Shown here: positions 14,065-64,000 of the stretch, one piece after another
How positions within the stretch are numbered: position 1 is the stretch's first letter
Layout of the letters: each line of letters opens with the position of its first letter
Assembly: GCF_900465345.1 (NCBI RefSeq)
Contig: NZ_UEGO01000038.1
Span: forward strand, 1-64,000
From: Asaia bogorensis
GTDB taxonomy: Bacteria > Pseudomonadota > Alphaproteobacteria > Acetobacterales > Acetobacteraceae
DNA length: 64,000 nt
Direction of reading: 5' to 3'
Translations under genes and position numbers: made by a program
Notes under the pieces: model-generated
Seen by the model: only the letters and a program-made list of their open reading frames with translations
Told to the model about the DNA's origin: nothing
Databases searched by the model: none

Positions 14065-15516
14065 TCAGCGGGTCATCTTCCGCGAGAGAAACTCACCCTC
14101 ATTCAGACTGCGTTCAATGGCTTCCAGCGAGCGGCCCTTTGTCTCGGGAATACGGCGCTCGATGAAGATCCAGGCCAGAGTGGTTAGGGCTGCAAAGAGA
14201 AGGAAGGTGCCCGATACGCTGATCATCGAGATGATGGACAGGGTCACCATCGAGATCAGCAGATCGAAAGACCAGTGCGAGACGGTGACAAGGCCCATGC
14301 CCTTGCCGCGCACGGCGAGCGGAAAGACCTCGGCACCTACCAGCCAGAGCGAGGCATTGATGCTCCCCAGCGTGCAGAGCACATACAGGATCAGGCCAGC
14401 CACCGCGAAAAAGCGCCCCATACCCTGCGGGTCGCCGCCGAAGAACACGACAGCCAGAACGATCAGGGCAAGGATCGATCCGGGCAGCACGCGCAGCATG
14501 AGGCGACGACGCCCCCAGTGATCCACGGCCCAGAACCCGAACACCGTCGCAACGGTGATGGCCACGCCAATGGCCAGCGAAATGAGCAGGGCAGAATTGC
14601 GGTCGAACCCCGCGCCCGAAAGGATGGTCGGGGCATAGGTCAGGACGGCATTTGTGCCGGTTACCTGACTGAACATGGCAAGCCCGGTCCCGGCAATCAG
14701 GGCCGGGCGGAGCCGGGGTGAGAAGAGCAGGCGCCAGCTCCCTTGTTCCTGCGCGGCACCCTCAATGTCACGCATTTCGGCCTCGGGGTCCTCACCGGGG
14801 CCTCGGAGGCTGCGCAAAATCGCGATGGCCTCGTCCCGTCGGCCCTTTGCGGCAAGAAAGCGCGGGCTTTCGGGCAGGAAAATGAGGCCGACCAGCAGCA
14901 TCAGCGCGGGAATGGCACCGATGAGCACCATCATGCGCCAGTCTCCTCCCCGGTCGAGCAGTCGGATGAGCAAGGGGCTGCCGCTCAGCCACCAGCCGAT
15001 CAGCGAACTGATAAGGACGCCGCTGACAATGGCCAGCTGAAACAGCAGGACGAGCCGCCCCCGTCGTGAAGCAGGCGCCAGTTCAGCAATATAGACGGGC
15101 ACGATCTGGCTGGCGGCACCGACGGCCAGACCAAGCAGCAGCCGCATCAGCGTCAGTTCCGTAGGGGACATGGCCATTGCCGAGCCGATAGAGCCAAGCA
15201 GGAACAGCGCCCCCGATAGCCCGACCACCATGCGACGTCCCAGACGGTCCGATAGGGGCCCTGCGGCCATGCATCCCAGCAAGGCGCCGGCAACCATGCC
15301 TGCGGCAATGGCCTGTTTGCCCAGCGTGCCAAGAGTGAAGCTGTCACCCAGTGTCAGGAGTGCTGCGGAAATGATGCCCTGATCATAGCCAAAGAGAATA
15401 CCCGCCAGACCTGCCACGCAGGACGCGATGAATACGCGTCGGTGCCCCGCCTGCCCTGAGTGGGTGTTGTTTTCAATGGCTGTGCCGGGCGTGCCTGCCG
15501 GGTGAGTCGAACGCAT
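14065..15516 (-). CDS. MFS sugar transporter (sugar-porter family)
   Basis: The 483-residue protein has twelve predicted membrane helices and the sugar-porter signatures: FGYDQGIISAAL in helix 1, DRLGRR in loop 2-3, PESPRFL before the central loop, DHWGRRRL in loop 8-9 and PETKGRSLE after helix 12. Family members are mostly H+/hexose, pentose or polyol symporters. It has a good ribosome binding site (GAGAGG). It converges with the TonB receptor gene. The tandem operator at 15576-15609 lies 60 bases upstream and closely resembles the site before the DeoR gene at 58 kb, so its substrate may be a polyol or ketose handled by that operon. Confidence 0.92.
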   Translation of the reverse strand: MRSTHPAGTPGTAIENNTHSGQAGHRRVFIASCVAGLAGILFGYDQGIISAALLTLGDSFTLGTLGKQAIAAGMVAGALLGCMAAGPLSDRLGRRMVVGLSGALFLLGSIGSAMAMSPTELTLMRLLLGLAVGAASQIVPVYIAELAPASRRGRLVLLFQLAIVSGVLISSLIGWWLSGSPLLIRLLDRGGDWRMMVLIGAIPALMLLVGLIFLPESPRFLAAKGRRDEAIAILRSLRGPGEDPEAEMRDIEGAAQEQGSWRLLFSPRLRPALIAGTGLAMFSQVTGTNAVLTYAPTILSGAGFDRNSALLISLAIGVAITVATVFGFWAVDHWGRRRLMLRVLPGSILALIVLAVVFFGGDPQGMGRFFAVAGLILYVLCTLGSINASLWLVGAEVFPLAVRGKGMGLVTVSHWSFDLLISMVTLSIISMISVSGTFLLFAALTTLAWIFIERRIPETKGRSLEAIERSLNEGEFLSRKMTR

Positions 15517-15575: not shown

Positions 15576-15609
15576 TTTCGATACGAAAGACAAGATTTCG
15601 TTACGAAAG
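15576..15609. promoter_or_regulatory. Tandem DeoR-type operator upstream of the MFS gene
   Basis: Two 14-bp units, TTTCGATACGAAAG and TTTCGTTACGAAAG, start exactly 20 bases apart, two helical turns, so a regulator could occupy the same DNA face. Each unit is itself an inverted repeat TTTCG-n3-CGAAA. The 34-bp block matches the block at 58437-58470, before the DeoR regulator gene, at 26 of 34 positions. Regulators of the DeoR family often bind TTTCG-type repeats. I infer that the DeoR protein encoded at 58.5 kb binds here and controls the transporter. A weak CATAAC/GTTATG repeat at 15691-15724 is the only other structure before hrpB. Confidence 0.65.
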
Positions 15610-15754
15610 GGTCCTGACCTGTGATTTCAACCAGCGCAGCGCGGACAAATCACAGGATTCGTCAGGTGGATCGGGTATCACAGCGTCATACATAACATTT
15701 TCGTGGTTCGTTAGTCACGTTATGTGTGACGAATCGCGCGAGGCTGTCAGGCGC

Positions 15755-58328: not shown

Positions 58329-58436
58329 GGTGGTTTCCGGCTCGGCGGCTGACCCGATGATAACGGACCAATGTGCATATCCTGACACAACCCTGTGATG
58401 GCCTGTCTTAGCTGCTGACAAGCAAAAGATGATAAC

Positions 58437-58470
58437 TTACAAAACGAAAGATAGGTTTTCGTTTTGAAAG
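58437..58470. promoter_or_regulatory. DeoR-type tandem operator of the polyol operon
   Basis: TTACAAAACGAAAG and TTTCGTTTTGAAAG start 20 bases apart and end 10 bases before the DeoR start codon. They match the perfect tandem units at 15576-15609 at 11 and 12 of 14 positions with the same spacing. The position suggests autoregulation by the DeoR protein. GAAAG at 58466-58470 could double as a ribosome binding site. Confidence 0.65.
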
Positions 58471-58480
58471 ATTCTTGACC

Positions 58481-59251
58481 ATGTCGATGGGCGTTAACAG
58501 CGCAACTCTCAAACGCCGTCTGGGAATTGTCGATACCGTAAGGCGCGCCGGATTCATACGGACCGAGGCGCTGGCGAGTCAGTTCGACGTCTCCATGGTG
58601 ACGATAAGGTCAGACCTTGCCTATCTGCAAAGTCAGAATCTCGTCATCAGAACAAATGGCGGTGCCCAGCCGGCTCACGATTATGCTGTCGATGCGCCTC
58701 TGGATGAGGGGCCCACCCTGTATGAGGCCCGAGCTCTGGCACGTGCTGTCGCCTTCAGGCTCAAGCCAGGGCAGTGCGTTTTTCTGGACAACACGCAGGC
58801 CGCTTCTTTCGTGCCGGTCTATGCGACAGCCGAAAACCTGCGTTTCGTCGTCAACAGCTTCGAAACCTACCATATGGCGAGCCGGACCAGCGATGCGGCG
58901 GTCTCGTTGCTGGGTGGCGAGTATGACCGGCTGGGATACCCGCTGATCAGCCCCGCTGCTGATCATGCCTTGTCTTTCTATGATCTGGATCTCGCGGTCA
59001 TTTCGGCAGCTCAGATCAGCAAGCGGGGTTTCACCTGTCTCGATCAGACAGGCAGCTGTCTGGAGAGTGCCATCATCCGGGCGCGGCAGGTCTTTTTGCT
59101 GACTGACCGTCTCGATCGGGCCGATGAGGATGGTCATGTTCTGGACTGGCGCAAAACCATGTCGGTTCTGCATGGGGGCACACCGCCCGATGGCGCGGTG
59201 CTATGCGAGGACTGGTCTGTTTTTGCAGATGACACCGCACCCTCCGGCTGA
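58481..59251 (+). CDS. DeoR/GlpR-family transcriptional regulator
   Basis: The 256-residue protein has an N-terminal winged helix (RRLGIVDTVRRAGFIRTEAL, then ASQFDVSMVTIRSDLAYLQ) and a C-terminal DeoRC domain related to phosphosugar-isomerase folds, which binds a sugar phosphate. TTG at 58475 and ATG at 58487 are alternative starts. The kinase gene follows 58 bases downstream, so this is the first gene of the polyol operon. It likely represses the operon until a phosphorylated ketose such as tagatose 6-phosphate accumulates, as inference. Confidence 0.92.
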   Translation: MSMGVNSATLKRRLGIVDTVRRAGFIRTEALASQFDVSMVTIRSDLAYLQSQNLVIRTNGGAQPAHDYAVDAPLDEGPTLYEARALARAVAFRLKPGQCVFLDNTQAASFVPVYATAENLRFVVNSFETYHMASRTSDAAVSLLGGEYDRLGYPLISPAADHALSFYDLDLAVISAAQISKRGFTCLDQTGSCLESAIIRARQVFLLTDRLDRADEDGHVLDWRKTMSVLHGGTPPDGAVLCEDWSVFADDTAPSG

Positions 59252-59309: not shown

Positions 59310-60302
59310 ATGGCATCCAGTTTTCTGATGGACCAGTCCCCGGACGCGCCGCGTTGCATCATCACAATCGGTGAGATTGTGGTCGAGATCATGGCCGAGA
59401 CCCAGGGTACTGGTTTTCTCGAACCGATGGCTCTCAAGGGGCCTTACCCTTCGGGCGCACCGGCGATCTTCATTGATCAGGTCGCTCGTCTGGGCGTGGA
59501 GTGCGGTATCGTCTCGGCGGTCGGGCGTGATGATTTCGGCACGCTCAATATCGAGCGCCTGAGGCGTGATGGTGTGGATGTTTCTGCCATACTCAGCGTG
59601 GACAGTTTTGCAACAGGCAGTGCGTTTGTGCGCTACCGGCCCGATGGCAGTCGCGATTTCGTCTATAACATCCGCCAGTCTGCCTGCTCGCAAACGGGCC
59701 TTCACGAGGCAGCGCGTGGACTGCTCAAGCGCGCGACCCATGTCCATGTGATGGGGTCCTCACTGTTTTCCTTTCCGATCATCGATGCCGTGACGACCGC
59801 TGTGCATCAGGTCAAGGCGCAGGGTGGAACCGTTTCATTCGACCCGAATATCCGCAAGGAGATGCTCGACATCCCCGATATGCGGGCAGCCCTGCAATTG
59901 ATGCTTCAGGAATGCGACATCTTCCTGCCAAGCGGTCCCGAACTGCTCCTGTTCAGCAGTAGCACGACGCAGGAGGCCGCCATTGCCGAGATTCTCGACA
60001 TGGGCGTTTCTGAAATCGTGCTCAAACAGGGCAGTGAGGGCGCGACCTGCTTTTGTGCCGACAAGACCGTCCATGGTGCGCCGTTCCCGGCGCAGGAAAT
60101 TGACCCCACAGGCGCGGGCGACTGCTTTGGCGCGACCTATGTCACATGCCGCCTGCTCGGCAAGACGCGCGAAGACTCGCTGCGCTATGCCTGTGCCTCC
60201 GGGGCGAGGGCTGTTTCGTTTTTTGGCCCGATGGAAGGTACGTCCGATTTCGCGGCGCTCGATCAGCTCATTGCAGGCCAGAACACGGGAGAAAAAGCAT
60301 GA
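59310..60302 (+). CDS. PfkB-family ketose kinase (tagatose or fructose kinase)
   Basis: The 330-residue ribokinase-family enzyme has the C-terminal signature DPTGAGDCFGA with catalytic D271, and a substrate region GPYPSGAPAIFIDQVARLG replacing the usual GGAPAN-type Gly pair. The next gene encodes a GatZ/KbaZ-like protein whose start overlaps this stop (ATGA). D-tagatose kinase is the role of the matching gene in the Agrobacterium galactitol pathway, and it fits here. Fructokinase is the main alternative, because the operon also has a sorbitol dehydrogenase. Confidence 0.88.
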   Translation: MASSFLMDQSPDAPRCIITIGEIVVEIMAETQGTGFLEPMALKGPYPSGAPAIFIDQVARLGVECGIVSAVGRDDFGTLNIERLRRDGVDVSAILSVDSFATGSAFVRYRPDGSRDFVYNIRQSACSQTGLHEAARGLLKRATHVHVMGSSLFSFPIIDAVTTAVHQVKAQGGTVSFDPNIRKEMLDIPDMRAALQLMLQECDIFLPSGPELLLFSSSTTQEAAIAEILDMGVSEIVLKQGSEGATCFCADKTVHGAPFPAQEIDPTGAGDCFGATYVTCRLLGKTREDSLRYACASGARAVSFFGPMEGTSDFAALDQLIAGQNTGEKA

Positions 60303-61549
60303 CCGGTTCGCTCATCTCGACATTGCGGGCGCGTTTTGACCAGGGCGACAAGACAGCTGTCACCTCGGTATGCTCGGCCCATCCCCTTGTCATTGAGGCC
60401 GCCCTTCTTCATGCGGCATCGCACGGCAAGGCTGTGCTGATTGAGGCGACCTGCAATCAGGTCAATCAGGATGGCGGTTATACCGGCATGAAGCCCGTCG
60501 ATTTTCGCGATTACGTATACGGTATCGCCGATCGGCTGGGCTTTGCACGTGAGCAGATCATTCTGGGCGGGGATCATCTCGGTCCCAATCCGTGGAAGTC
60601 GCTTCCGGCAGCACAGGCCCTGCAAAAAGCCTCGGACATGATTGCGGCTTTTGCCGAGGCAGGATTTACCAAGCTGCATCTCGACGCCAGCATGGGTTGC
60701 AAGGGTGAGGCCGAGCATCTGCCTGATGCCATTGTGGCAGAGCGGGCCGTGATGCTGGCCAAGCGAGCCGAATCCGTCGCACCGGGGCGGTCCGTCTATG
60801 TGATCGGTACGGAAATTCCCACCCCGGGCGGGGCGACCGAAGCCCTCGACCACGTTACGCCCACCACACCGGACGCAGTTCGTGCGACCTATCAGGTACA
60901 TGAAAACGCCTTCCGCGAGGCGGTGCCGGCGGCCTGGTCGCGCGTGATTGGCATCGTGGTGCAGCCCGGTGTGGAGTTTGGCCATGAAGATGTGGTCATT
61001 TATCAGCCCGAGCAGGCCAGCGCGCTTGTTGCCACATTAGCTCGTCTGCCGGGTCTGGTTTTCGAGGCACATTCAACCGACTATCAGCCGGGCACGGCGC
61101 TGGCACGACTGAAACAGGACGGGTTCTGTATTCTGAAGGTTGGGCCGGAGCTGAGCTTTGCCCTGCGTGAAACGCTTTACGGGCTCGACGCCATACGTAG
61201 CTTCATCGACCCACAGGCAGTGTCGCTGGTCGGGACGATGGAAAAGACCATGCTCGATGCGCCTGCCAACTGGCAGAGCCATTATCATGGCGATGCGATG
61301 GAGCAGCGTATCCTGCGCCATTTCAGCTATAGCGACCGTATTCGCTATTACTGGCCCGAACCGGCCGCCGAACAGGCCGTGACAGCGCTGATCCAGTCGC
61401 TGGAACAGGTGTCCATTCCTGAAACCATGATCAGCCAGTATCTGCCCCGGCTTTTCGAGCGCGTGAAATCGGGTGCGCTTGCCGCCGAGCCTCGGGCTCT
61501 TCTGATCCAGTCGGTTCGCGACGTGCTCGAACGTTACGAGACGCTTTGA
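60299..61549 (+). CDS. GatZ/KbaZ-like protein, probable D-tagatose 6-phosphate 4-epimerase
   Basis: The 416-residue protein matches the GatZ/KbaZ family (about 420 residues): SVCSAHPLVIEAAL, EATCNQVNQDGGYTGM, GGDHLGPNPW, LHLDASMGC and the segment VFEAHSTDYQ. In E. coli GatZ helps the aldolase GatY. Here no gatY or kbaY gene lies in the window. In Agrobacterium a stand-alone GatZ-like enzyme was shown to be a D-tagatose 6-phosphate 4-epimerase making fructose 6-phosphate, and I favour that activity. The start overlaps the kinase stop by four bases. Confidence 0.88.
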   Translation: MTGSLISTLRARFDQGDKTAVTSVCSAHPLVIEAALLHAASHGKAVLIEATCNQVNQDGGYTGMKPVDFRDYVYGIADRLGFAREQIILGGDHLGPNPWKSLPAAQALQKASDMIAAFAEAGFTKLHLDASMGCKGEAEHLPDAIVAERAVMLAKRAESVAPGRSVYVIGTEIPTPGGATEALDHVTPTTPDAVRATYQVHENAFREAVPAAWSRVIGIVVQPGVEFGHEDVVIYQPEQASALVATLARLPGLVFEAHSTDYQPGTALARLKQDGFCILKVGPELSFALRETLYGLDAIRSFIDPQAVSLVGTMEKTMLDAPANWQSHYHGDAMEQRILRHFSYSDRIRYYWPEPAAEQAVTALIQSLEQVSIPETMISQYLPRLFERVKSGALAAEPRALLIQSVRDVLERYETL

Positions 61550-61673: not shown

Positions 61674-62471
61674 ATGAATGCCACCACCGCCCCTCAGGGC
61701 AAGCCATTGCAGGATCGTGTTGCGCTCATTACGGGTGCCGCACGCGGTATCGGCCGCGCTCTTGCCGAGCGCTATGCACGCGAAGGTGCGCACGTTGTTA
61801 TCGGTGACCTGAACGAGGCAGGTGCGGTCAGCGCCGCTGCCGAACTCGGTGCCGATCATCTTGGCGTTGCACTCGATGTAACCCGACAGGACTCCATCGA
61901 TGCCGCGCTGGCGGCCATTATCGCGCGTTATGGCCGTATCGATATTCTGGTCAATAATGCCGGTCTGTTCGATCTCGCTCCGACGGTCGAAATCACGCGT
62001 GAAAGCTATCAGCGCGTGTTCGCCGTCAATGTCGAAGGGCTGCTTTTCACGCTTCAGGCGGTCGCACGCCAGATGATCGCGCAGGGTCATGGCGGCAAGA
62101 TCATCAATTTCGCCTCGCAGGCCGGGCGTCGCGGTGAGCCATTGGTCGCGATCTACTGCGCCTCGAAGGCAGCCGTGATTTCTCTCACCCAGAGCACCGG
62201 GCTCGATCTCATCAAATACGGTATCAACGTCAATGCCATTGCACCGGGTGTGGTCGATAACGAGCACTGGGATGATGTGGACCGCCGCTTCGCCCAGTAC
62301 GAGAACCTGCCTCTTGGTGAAAAGAAGCGGATCGTTGGCGCATCGGTACCGTTCGGGCGTATGGCGCGTCCTGACGAGATCGGGGGGCTTGCGGTGTTTC
62401 TGGCCTCGAAGGATGCCGATTATATCGTCTCGCAAACCTATAATATCGACGGCGGCAACTGGATGAGCTGA
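61674..62471 (+). CDS. smoS: SmoS-like sorbitol/galactitol dehydrogenase (SDR)
   Basis: The 265-residue SDR has TGAARGIG at 20-27, acidic D45 after strand 2 (NAD preference), NNAG at 94-97 and catalytic S148, Y161 and K165 in YCASK. Segments FDLAPTVEITRESY, SQAGRRGEPLV and the C-terminal QTYNIDGGNWMS agree very closely with the Rhodobacter SmoS sorbitol dehydrogenase as I remember it. That enzyme oxidises D-sorbitol to fructose and galactitol to tagatose. It has about nine extra residues at the N-terminus. It follows the GatZ-like gene by 124 bases and probably belongs to the same unit. Confidence 0.9.
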   Translation: MNATTAPQGKPLQDRVALITGAARGIGRALAERYAREGAHVVIGDLNEAGAVSAAAELGADHLGVALDVTRQDSIDAALAAIIARYGRIDILVNNAGLFDLAPTVEITRESYQRVFAVNVEGLLFTLQAVARQMIAQGHGGKIINFASQAGRRGEPLVAIYCASKAAVISLTQSTGLDLIKYGINVNAIAPGVVDNEHWDDVDRRFAQYENLPLGEKKRIVGASVPFGRMARPDEIGGLAVFLASKDADYIVSQTYNIDGGNWMS

Positions 62472-62708: not shown

Positions 62709-64000
62709 ATGAAAACGCAGAGGCAACCCGGCATGGGTGATACCGATCGTGCTGGCATCGAGGCGATTGTCGAGCAGACCTCACCGGGGCGGTCCGCATG
62801 GCTCATTCTCGCGGTAGCCTCTTTTGCCGCCGCAGTATGCGGTGGGCTTTACGGCTATGATACCGGTGTGATTTCCGGGGCGCTTTTGCTCATGACGCGT
62901 GAATTCGGGCTGTCGCACACGCAGCAGGAAATCGTGACGGCCTCCATACTTGCTGGCGCAGTCGTGGGGGCGCTGGTCACGAGCTGGTCATCGGAGCATC
63001 TGGGCCGCAAGAAAACCGTCCTTGTCGTGTTATTCTTGTTCGCCCTGGGGGCGATTTTGTGCTCGATGGCCCCGAGTATCGGCAGCCTTCTTGCCGCACG
63101 TTTCCTGCTGGGTATCGCGGTAGGCGGCTCCACACAGGTTGTGCCCATGTATATTTCCGAATTATCGCCAAGCCGTTATCGCGGCACGCTGGTCACCACC
63201 TTCAATGTGGCGATCGGGGTCGGGATCGTTCTGGCGAATATCGTTGGATATTATTACCACGATGTCTGGTCATGGCGTCGCATGGTGTCGGTCGCTTCCA
63301 TCCCGGCGGGTCTGGTCTTTATGGTCATGCTGTTCATGCCGGCCAGCCCGCGCTGGATTGCCGAAAAGCGGGGCCTGACGGCGGCCGCGCGTATTCTTGA
63401 ACGGGTGCGACATACGAAGCTCGATATTCATCAGGAGCTTACCCAGATCGAGCGTATCCGTCAGTCAATCAACCCCGAAAATTCCGGCTGGGCCGGGTTG
63501 GCGCAGCCATGGGCACGCCCCGCGCTGATCGCTGCTCTGGGGGTGGCCTTCTTCACGCAATGTGGCGGGCTGGAGATGATGATCTATTATTCTCCCACTT
63601 TCCTGTCCGATGCCGGGTTTGGAAAAAATGCGGCCCTTCTGGCCAGCGTCGGGGTGGCTTTCGTTTATGCCATTGTCACCCTGGCTGGGTGTTTTCTGGT
63701 CGATCGCGTCGGGCGTCGTCGTCTGATGCTGATCATGATTCCGGGCTCGGTCATCAGTCTGATCGGGCTTGGCATTTCGTTCATGTCGGGCAGTCATCAG
63801 GGGTTTGGCGCGCTTGCCACTGTGGCTTTCCTCCTGCTTTTCATGATGTTCAATTCGGGCGGTATCCAGATCTGTGGCTGGCTGCTGGGGGCAGAGTTGT
63901 TTCCGCTTGGTATGCGCGGCCCGGCGACGGCGCTGCATGCGGCGATGCTCTGGGGCAGTAATCTGCTCGTGACCGGAACGGCACTCACTCTGGTGCAATC
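62709..64000 (+). CDS. MFS sugar-porter transporter (partial, cut by window end)
   Basis: The frame opens at ATG with GAAGGGG seven bases upstream and stays open for 430 codons to the window edge. Sugar-porter signatures are present: YGYDTGVISGALL in helix 1, SEHLGRKK in loop 2-3, PASPRWIAEKR before the central loop, DRVGRRRL in loop 8-9 and AELFPLGMRG. The PETKG end lies beyond the window. Its N-terminus has an extra 25 residues before helix 1. It is most likely the polyol or ketose uptake system of the upstream operon. It resembles the transporter at 14-15.5 kb in family only. Confidence 0.9.
   Translation, partial: MKTQRQPGMGDTDRAGIEAIVEQTSPGRSAWLILAVASFAAAVCGGLYGYDTGVISGALLLMTREFGLSHTQQEIVTASILAGAVVGALVTSWSSEHLGRKKTVLVVLFLFALGAILCSMAPSIGSLLAARFLLGIAVGGSTQVVPMYISELSPSRYRGTLVTTFNVAIGVGIVLANIVGYYYHDVWSWRRMVSVASIPAGLVFMVMLFMPASPRWIAEKRGLTAAARILERVRHTKLDIHQELTQIERIRQSINPENSGWAGLAQPWARPALIAALGVAFFTQCGGLEMMIYYSPTFLSDAGFGKNAALLASVGVAFVYAIVTLAGCFLVDRVGRRRLMLIMIPGSVISLIGLGISFMSGSHQGFGALATVAFLLLFMMFNSGGIQICGWLLGAELFPLGMRGPATALHAAMLWGSNLLVTGTALTLVQ

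Follow-up and report, generated by a model that had tools for sequence, protein, structure and literature searches.

A putative tandem DeoR-type operator kept at two promoters in Asaia points to a small regulon of a tagatose-type operon and a distant sugar porter

In this study, which was based on a 64,000-nucleotide stretch of the Asaia bogorensis genome (contig NZ_UEGO01000038.1, positions 1 to 64,000; hereafter the window) and on its comparison with related genomes, we analysed two similar 34-bp blocks that we predict to be tandem operators. The distal one (15576-15609, plus strand), which consists of 14-mers at 15576-15589 and 15596-15609, precedes the minus-strand gene of a sugar porter of the major facilitator superfamily (MFS), which is called MFS1 here. 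The proximal one (58437-58470, plus strand) adjoins the gene of a DeoR-family regulator (58475-59251, plus strand), with a 10 bp gap to the likely deoR ATG, and the gene order there is deoR, tagatose kinase, gatZ, polyol dehydrogenase and sugar porter. In the reading that we favour on the basis of the sequence, and to which we assign a probability of roughly 85%, both blocks would be operators of this regulator, which would repress its own operon and the distant MFS1 until it is released by an inducer, the operator at deoR overlapping the -10 element. The sites, their rarity, their conservation and their linkage to these genes are established by the comparisons that are described below. The same operator is rare in the genome and is kept at orthologous promoters, which is the pattern expected of a shared two-locus regulon. 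Since the examined relatives that have these genes retain the block at each locus, one regulator very probably controls both loci. The original prediction of a small regulon, in which the DeoR protein controls its own polyol operon and a second transporter, is supported at this level by the rarity of the block, its conservation in the genus, the co-absence of the components and the retention of the block in a changed neighbourhood.

An ungapped alignment found both blocks where they had been predicted, with 26 of the 34 positions identical, eight different and the same spacing, each block consisting of two 14-mers that lie 20 bp apart from start to start. The distal copy was also correctly described as the more perfect one: neither of its 14-mers has a mismatch to TTTCGNNNCGAAA, compared to 2 and 1 mismatches in those of the deoR copy. 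When the deoR block was used as the query, the distal block ranked first among the other matches in the window (26/34); on the opposite strand, the same two blocks scored 25 and 23, and the next-best place in the window reached 19/34. For 300 shuffled queries, the best scores averaged 19.6 with a maximum of 23, and none attained 26 at any place. The block is composed of four alternating half-sites (TTTCG, CGAAAG, TTTCG and GAAAG) and is nearly identical when read on either strand. Its information content peaks in CGAAA, TTTCG and GAAAG, the calculation including one porter-side row, that of the Asaia genome G008, taken one repeat (20 bp) off, where the aligning site has an equal mismatch count; none of the other counts depends on this row. 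Because of these peaks, the inner CGAAAG-n-TTTCG may be the primary unit; the two TTTCG-n4-GAAAG 14-mers that were originally proposed are present, but the unit itself is perhaps not theirs. A likeness of seven in ten bases directly 3' of both blocks was dropped as it is not kept in relatives.

Across the 3.38-Mb genome, the tandem arrangement is confined to these two places. The core CGAAANNNNNNNTTTCGTNNNGAAAG (CGAAA-n7-TTTCGT-n3-GAAAG) matched without mismatch only at the two blocks, and its one-mismatch matches were the same two blocks on the other strand and nothing else. A stricter 26-mer, CGAAAGANAGGTTTTCGTTNNGAAAG, at up to three mismatches returned the two blocks, while its reversed control returned none. 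The scatter of random copies that had been named as evidence against the regulon therefore did not appear. Further copies, which a genome scan had been expected to look for, did not rise above control: at up to three mismatches, CGAAANNNNNNNTTTCGTNNNGAAAG had 31 matches in the genome compared to 35 in the reversed control, and with exact matches at the two blocks only, no third member of the regulon was seen above the control level in this whole-genome core scan.

At E ≤1e-30, the regulator was present in nine of 60 genomes, namely in eight of the nine of the genus (our own included) and in G016, which belongs to another genus (52%); at 1e-45 it was found in 9 of 397 family genomes. The MFS1 orthologue occurs in the same eight genus genomes (83-99% in the seven others). 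A strict pattern matched in six of the nine genus genomes, and alignment placed the block at both deoR and MFS1 in all eight that carry deoR, with 0-1 mismatch to the core at deoR and 0-2 at MFS1; a lack of conservation in related species, which would have spoken against the original prediction, was thus not encountered. Over seven genomes (the near-identical G005 was left out), the porter-side block had a mean pairwise identity of 0.81 and was the most conserved 34-bp stretch in the aligned region, compared to 0.16-0.50 in sampled upstream windows and 0.37-0.59 in the interval from the block to the early coding part. The deoR-side block reached about 0.79, and the adjoining coding start was equally conserved (up to 0.83). 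Core matches with two mismatches occurred away from both genes in all nine other genomes, mostly 1-5 in each compared to 1-3 in the control.

MFS1 stands beside hrpB in six of the eight genomes (our own included) and in five of these also beside a TonB receptor, which was not seen in the examined flank of G003. Neither hrpB nor the TonB receptor was found within the 10 kb examined at MFS1 in G004 and G008, which still carry the block before MFS1 with 1-2 core mismatches. The ninth genus genome, G006, has no deoR, no tagatose kinase, no block at 0-1 mismatch and no MFS1 orthologue, only a 48% paralogue being found. G000, G002, G004, G005 and G008 have the operon's own porter, which was not found in G001, G003 and G007; in these three, MFS1 is the sole porter found with the block. 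In G003, a long, repeat-rich reading frame (L111:8107-10771), which by eye has the look of a surface adhesin, occupies the place of the operon's porter.

Beyond Asaia, a tagatose kinase was found in 32 of 200 family genomes, and 30 loci were examined, 26 of them outside the genus. Half of these (13/26, from nine genera, G016 included) have a DeoR-like gene that is 29-52% identical directly upstream, and sites were searched for in the 250 bp before the start of the DeoR-like protein match. At 0-1 mismatch, TTTCGnnnCGAAA occurred at seven of these 13 loci (10 sites in 3,250 bp) and nowhere in the rest of the loci, and GAAAG-n5-8-TTTC occurred at nine (9 sites in 3,250 bp versus 1 in the other 46,605 bp), each of the 13 having one or the other upstream. 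The 13 loci without a DeoR-like gene had no TTTCGnnnCGAAA at 0-1 mismatch and no GAAAG-n5-8-TTTC in their first 1,500 bases. In G016, deoR, the kinase and gatZ occur without an adjacent short-chain dehydrogenase/reductase (SDR) or porter.

In the scheme that we infer for the binding protein, its oligomer, repression, the inducer and the substrate, the regulator would bind each block, probably in the form of two dimers that cooperate at a distance of two helical turns, and would repress the genes from deoR to the operon's sugar porter as well as MFS1. DeoR-family regulators are released by a phosphorylated sugar, and release in Asaia is probably brought about by a phosphorylated intermediate of the pathway, e.g., tagatose 6-phosphate; the sign of control, the inducer and the oligomer are proposed by analogy with this family. 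Galactitol or tagatose would be taken up, and galactitol would be oxidised to tagatose, which would be phosphorylated and epimerised to fructose 6-phosphate. These two are the likely substrates because, according to excerpts of the respective papers, GatZ/KbaZ proteins interconvert fructose 6-phosphate and tagatose 6-phosphate (PMC11907403), and SmoS oxidises galactitol (PMC10433430).

Several observations weigh against this interpretation. The 14-mer alone is no commoner than chance in a half-site search of the whole genome (44+30 matches at up to one mismatch versus 39+27 for the reversed control), and under independent bases, comparing the window all against all would be expected to yield about 2.6 (one strand) to 5 (both strands) chance pairs with at least 26/34 identities. 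Since some 3-5 such pairs are expected, the identity alone is weak without the deoR anchor, and the blocks might be a chance likeness of two A+T-rich stretches. We consider this scarcely credible, as both blocks are kept in 8/8 genomes while the flanks diverge, also in a different neighbourhood, and the core is exclusive to two places in the genome; the comparative data already contradict chance. Two unshared core matches with one mismatch do lie elsewhere among the nine other genomes, one each in G001 and G003. The changed MFS1 neighbourhood may be a single event because of the close relationship between G004 and G008 (97.8% in the operon porter), and the absences in G006 are weaker than they look because this genome is 88% complete. 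The same genome bears on the idea that another DeoR-type regulator binds the distal block and that the likeness is due only to a TTTCG preference that is general in this family. There are four other matches to the DeoR helix-turn-helix model (HTH_DeoR) in the genome, one of them weak, which could supply such a protein; the tandem block, however, was found at none of these four loci at up to three mismatches, and G006, which has no deoR, also has neither the porter nor the block. Binding by another family member is thus very improbable.

Outside the genus, G016 has only the deoR-side block and lacks an MFS1 orthologue, which leaves Asaia as the only genus in which the distal arm is seen. The cross-genus patterns were picked after the sequences had been viewed and two genera contribute three loci each, for which reason these sites are support rather than proof. 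There are also broken-looking gene copies, i.e., deoR and gatZ in G007 and the tagatose kinase, in two pieces, in G001; these could be either draft errors or operon decay. A consensus scan reported no sigma-70-like promoter at the deoR or the MFS1 site, and the MFS1 promoter could not be placed at all. This last point leaves some room for a regulator that activates, or that combines autorepression at deoR with activation at MFS1, as does the distance between the block and the start, which is about 10 bp at deoR and 60-93 bp upstream of the start codon at MFS1. According to an excerpt of PMC10433430, the DeoR-type relative EryD departs from typical negative regulation. The block nevertheless overlaps the likely deoR promoter, and we regard activation as unlikely; repression at both promoters, relieved by an inducer, is the reading that we retain.

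The likely deoR promoter was read by eye as CTGACA (58415-58420), a 17 bp spacer and TACAAA (58438-58443), all on the plus strand (58415-58443). The candidate -10 hexamer TACAAA sits within the left half of the operator block, and in the alignment, the relatives have TTATCTTTCG, TTACAAAACG or close variants at this place. The left half of the block probably doubles as the -10 element, and this would account for its poorer match to the operator pattern; judging from the variants of the relatives, it looks as if the operator and the -10 element were traded against each other. A second palindrome, TGACACAACCCTGTGATG (58383-58400, of the AACAC-n6-GTGAT type), begins 54 bp upstream of the start of the deoR block. 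Palindromes of this type occur in 8/8 Asaia deoR promoters at 54-55 bp, with 1-3 mismatches to TAACAC-n6-GTGTTA, and do not occur in G016; weaker look-alikes with varying placement precede MFS1 in some species. This palindrome may be a site for a second, more global regulator.

The regulator itself has an N-terminal DeoR-type helix-turn-helix domain (PF08220, 50.2 bits versus a cut-off of 21) and a C-terminal DeoRC sensor domain (PF00455, 53.8 bits versus 31.8). Its start is more likely one of the ATG codons at 58481 and 58487, both of which the aligned relatives share, than the TTG at 58475, which they do not. Its named relatives are six Asaia records (84-92% identity in the best segment); one further match, in a metagenome genome of the Armatimonadetes, is weak and partial, and a sequence search at E 0.001 yielded no relative with a solved structure. 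The G007 copy of the regulator gene is divided between two frames (L113:10433-11196), and both operators are retained in G007 and G001. The downstream genes, all on the plus strand, encode a D-tagatose kinase (59310-60302; NF049991, 457.5 bits versus a cut-off of 420), a GatZ/KbaZ family protein of the tagatose-6-phosphate C4-epimerase type (60299-61549; TIGR02810, 578 versus 568.8; PF08013), the start of which was set at 60299 while the listed reading frame starts at 60146, and a short-chain polyol dehydrogenase (SDR) of the L-iditol 2-dehydrogenase type (61674-62471; NF005472, 420.6 bits versus 338). The second sugar-porter MFS protein, in the operon, runs past the end of the window (62757-64000, coordinates being the extent of the match) and is 86-89% identical to the 507-aa porter of G004, which carries the Pfam domain Sugar_tr.

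MFS1 (14065-15516, minus strand) is a sugar porter family MFS transporter (TIGR00879, 297.9 bits versus a cut-off of 237.8; PF00083). The other neighbour of the distal block, hrpB, is likewise a minus-strand gene, whose 3' end faces the block, and it is therefore MFS1 and not hrpB that is placed for control. At 15702-15719, between the two genes, lies an inverted repeat that has a T-rich tail after it on the plus strand and that may be a terminator-like element or a further binding site. The in-frame stops that were counted in the porters of G002 and G003 proved to be the genes' own terminal codons.

Among known systems, the Asaia locus resembles the E. coli AgaR/aga operators, in which a DeoR-family regulator also governs a tagatose-phosphate pathway with a GatZ/KbaZ protein. 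The two differ in that the Asaia pathway would use a kinase and start from free tagatose or galactitol, whereas the aga pathway reportedly begins from a sugar of the phosphotransferase system. Ranked by E-value, AgaR is the top NCBIfam model for the Asaia regulator, but the protein is not AgaR, as it scored 74.9 bits against a cut-off of 260 (NF040755). Polyol transport in Agrobacterium relies on ATP-binding cassette (ABC) systems. ABC systems also serve this purpose in Sinorhizobium meliloti, according to an excerpt of PMC10433430, in contrast to the MFS porters here, one of which lies 43 kb away. Excerpts of PMC10433430 and PMC11907403 point to a further likeness with galactitol-tagatose catabolism in S. 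meliloti and Agrobacterium, i.e., the SmoS-type polyol dehydrogenase and GatZ-type proteins, and the reference list of the former names a separate S. meliloti tagatose operon. According to the excerpt of PMC4694137, E. coli AgaR acts on its own gene and on two further aga genes via palindromes that precede them; the AgaR1/2 proteins that are the subject of that paper belong to the GntR family, unlike E. coli AgaR. We found no paper joining Asaia and DeoR in the open literature, closed journals and regulon databases lying outside the search, and open-literature papers on Asaia and tagatose, by their titles and the beginnings of their abstracts, do not point to this operon. The predicted two-promoter regulon, a new one, is well supported, and its type of control is ordinary for the DeoR family.

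Through the proposed regulon, MFS1, whose family matches alone name no substrate, would gain a regulator, an operator and a probable class of substrates, and with two sites the regulon is small enough for complete testing. It also offers a case in which an operator is retained where its gene has a different neighbourhood. On a wider view, to which we give an even chance, the DeoR regulators linked to tagatose kinase in the Acetobacteraceae share an operator of several alternating GAAAG/TTTCG half-sites that is about two helical turns long and works as a single cooperative unit, and Asaia recruited a movable second porter, the operator of which was kept when the neighbourhood changed. In those species whose operon has no porter of its own, MFS1 is the only porter that was found to have the block. 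Asaia is an acetic acid bacterium of flowers and insects, and the uptake of sugar alcohols therefore bears on its niche.
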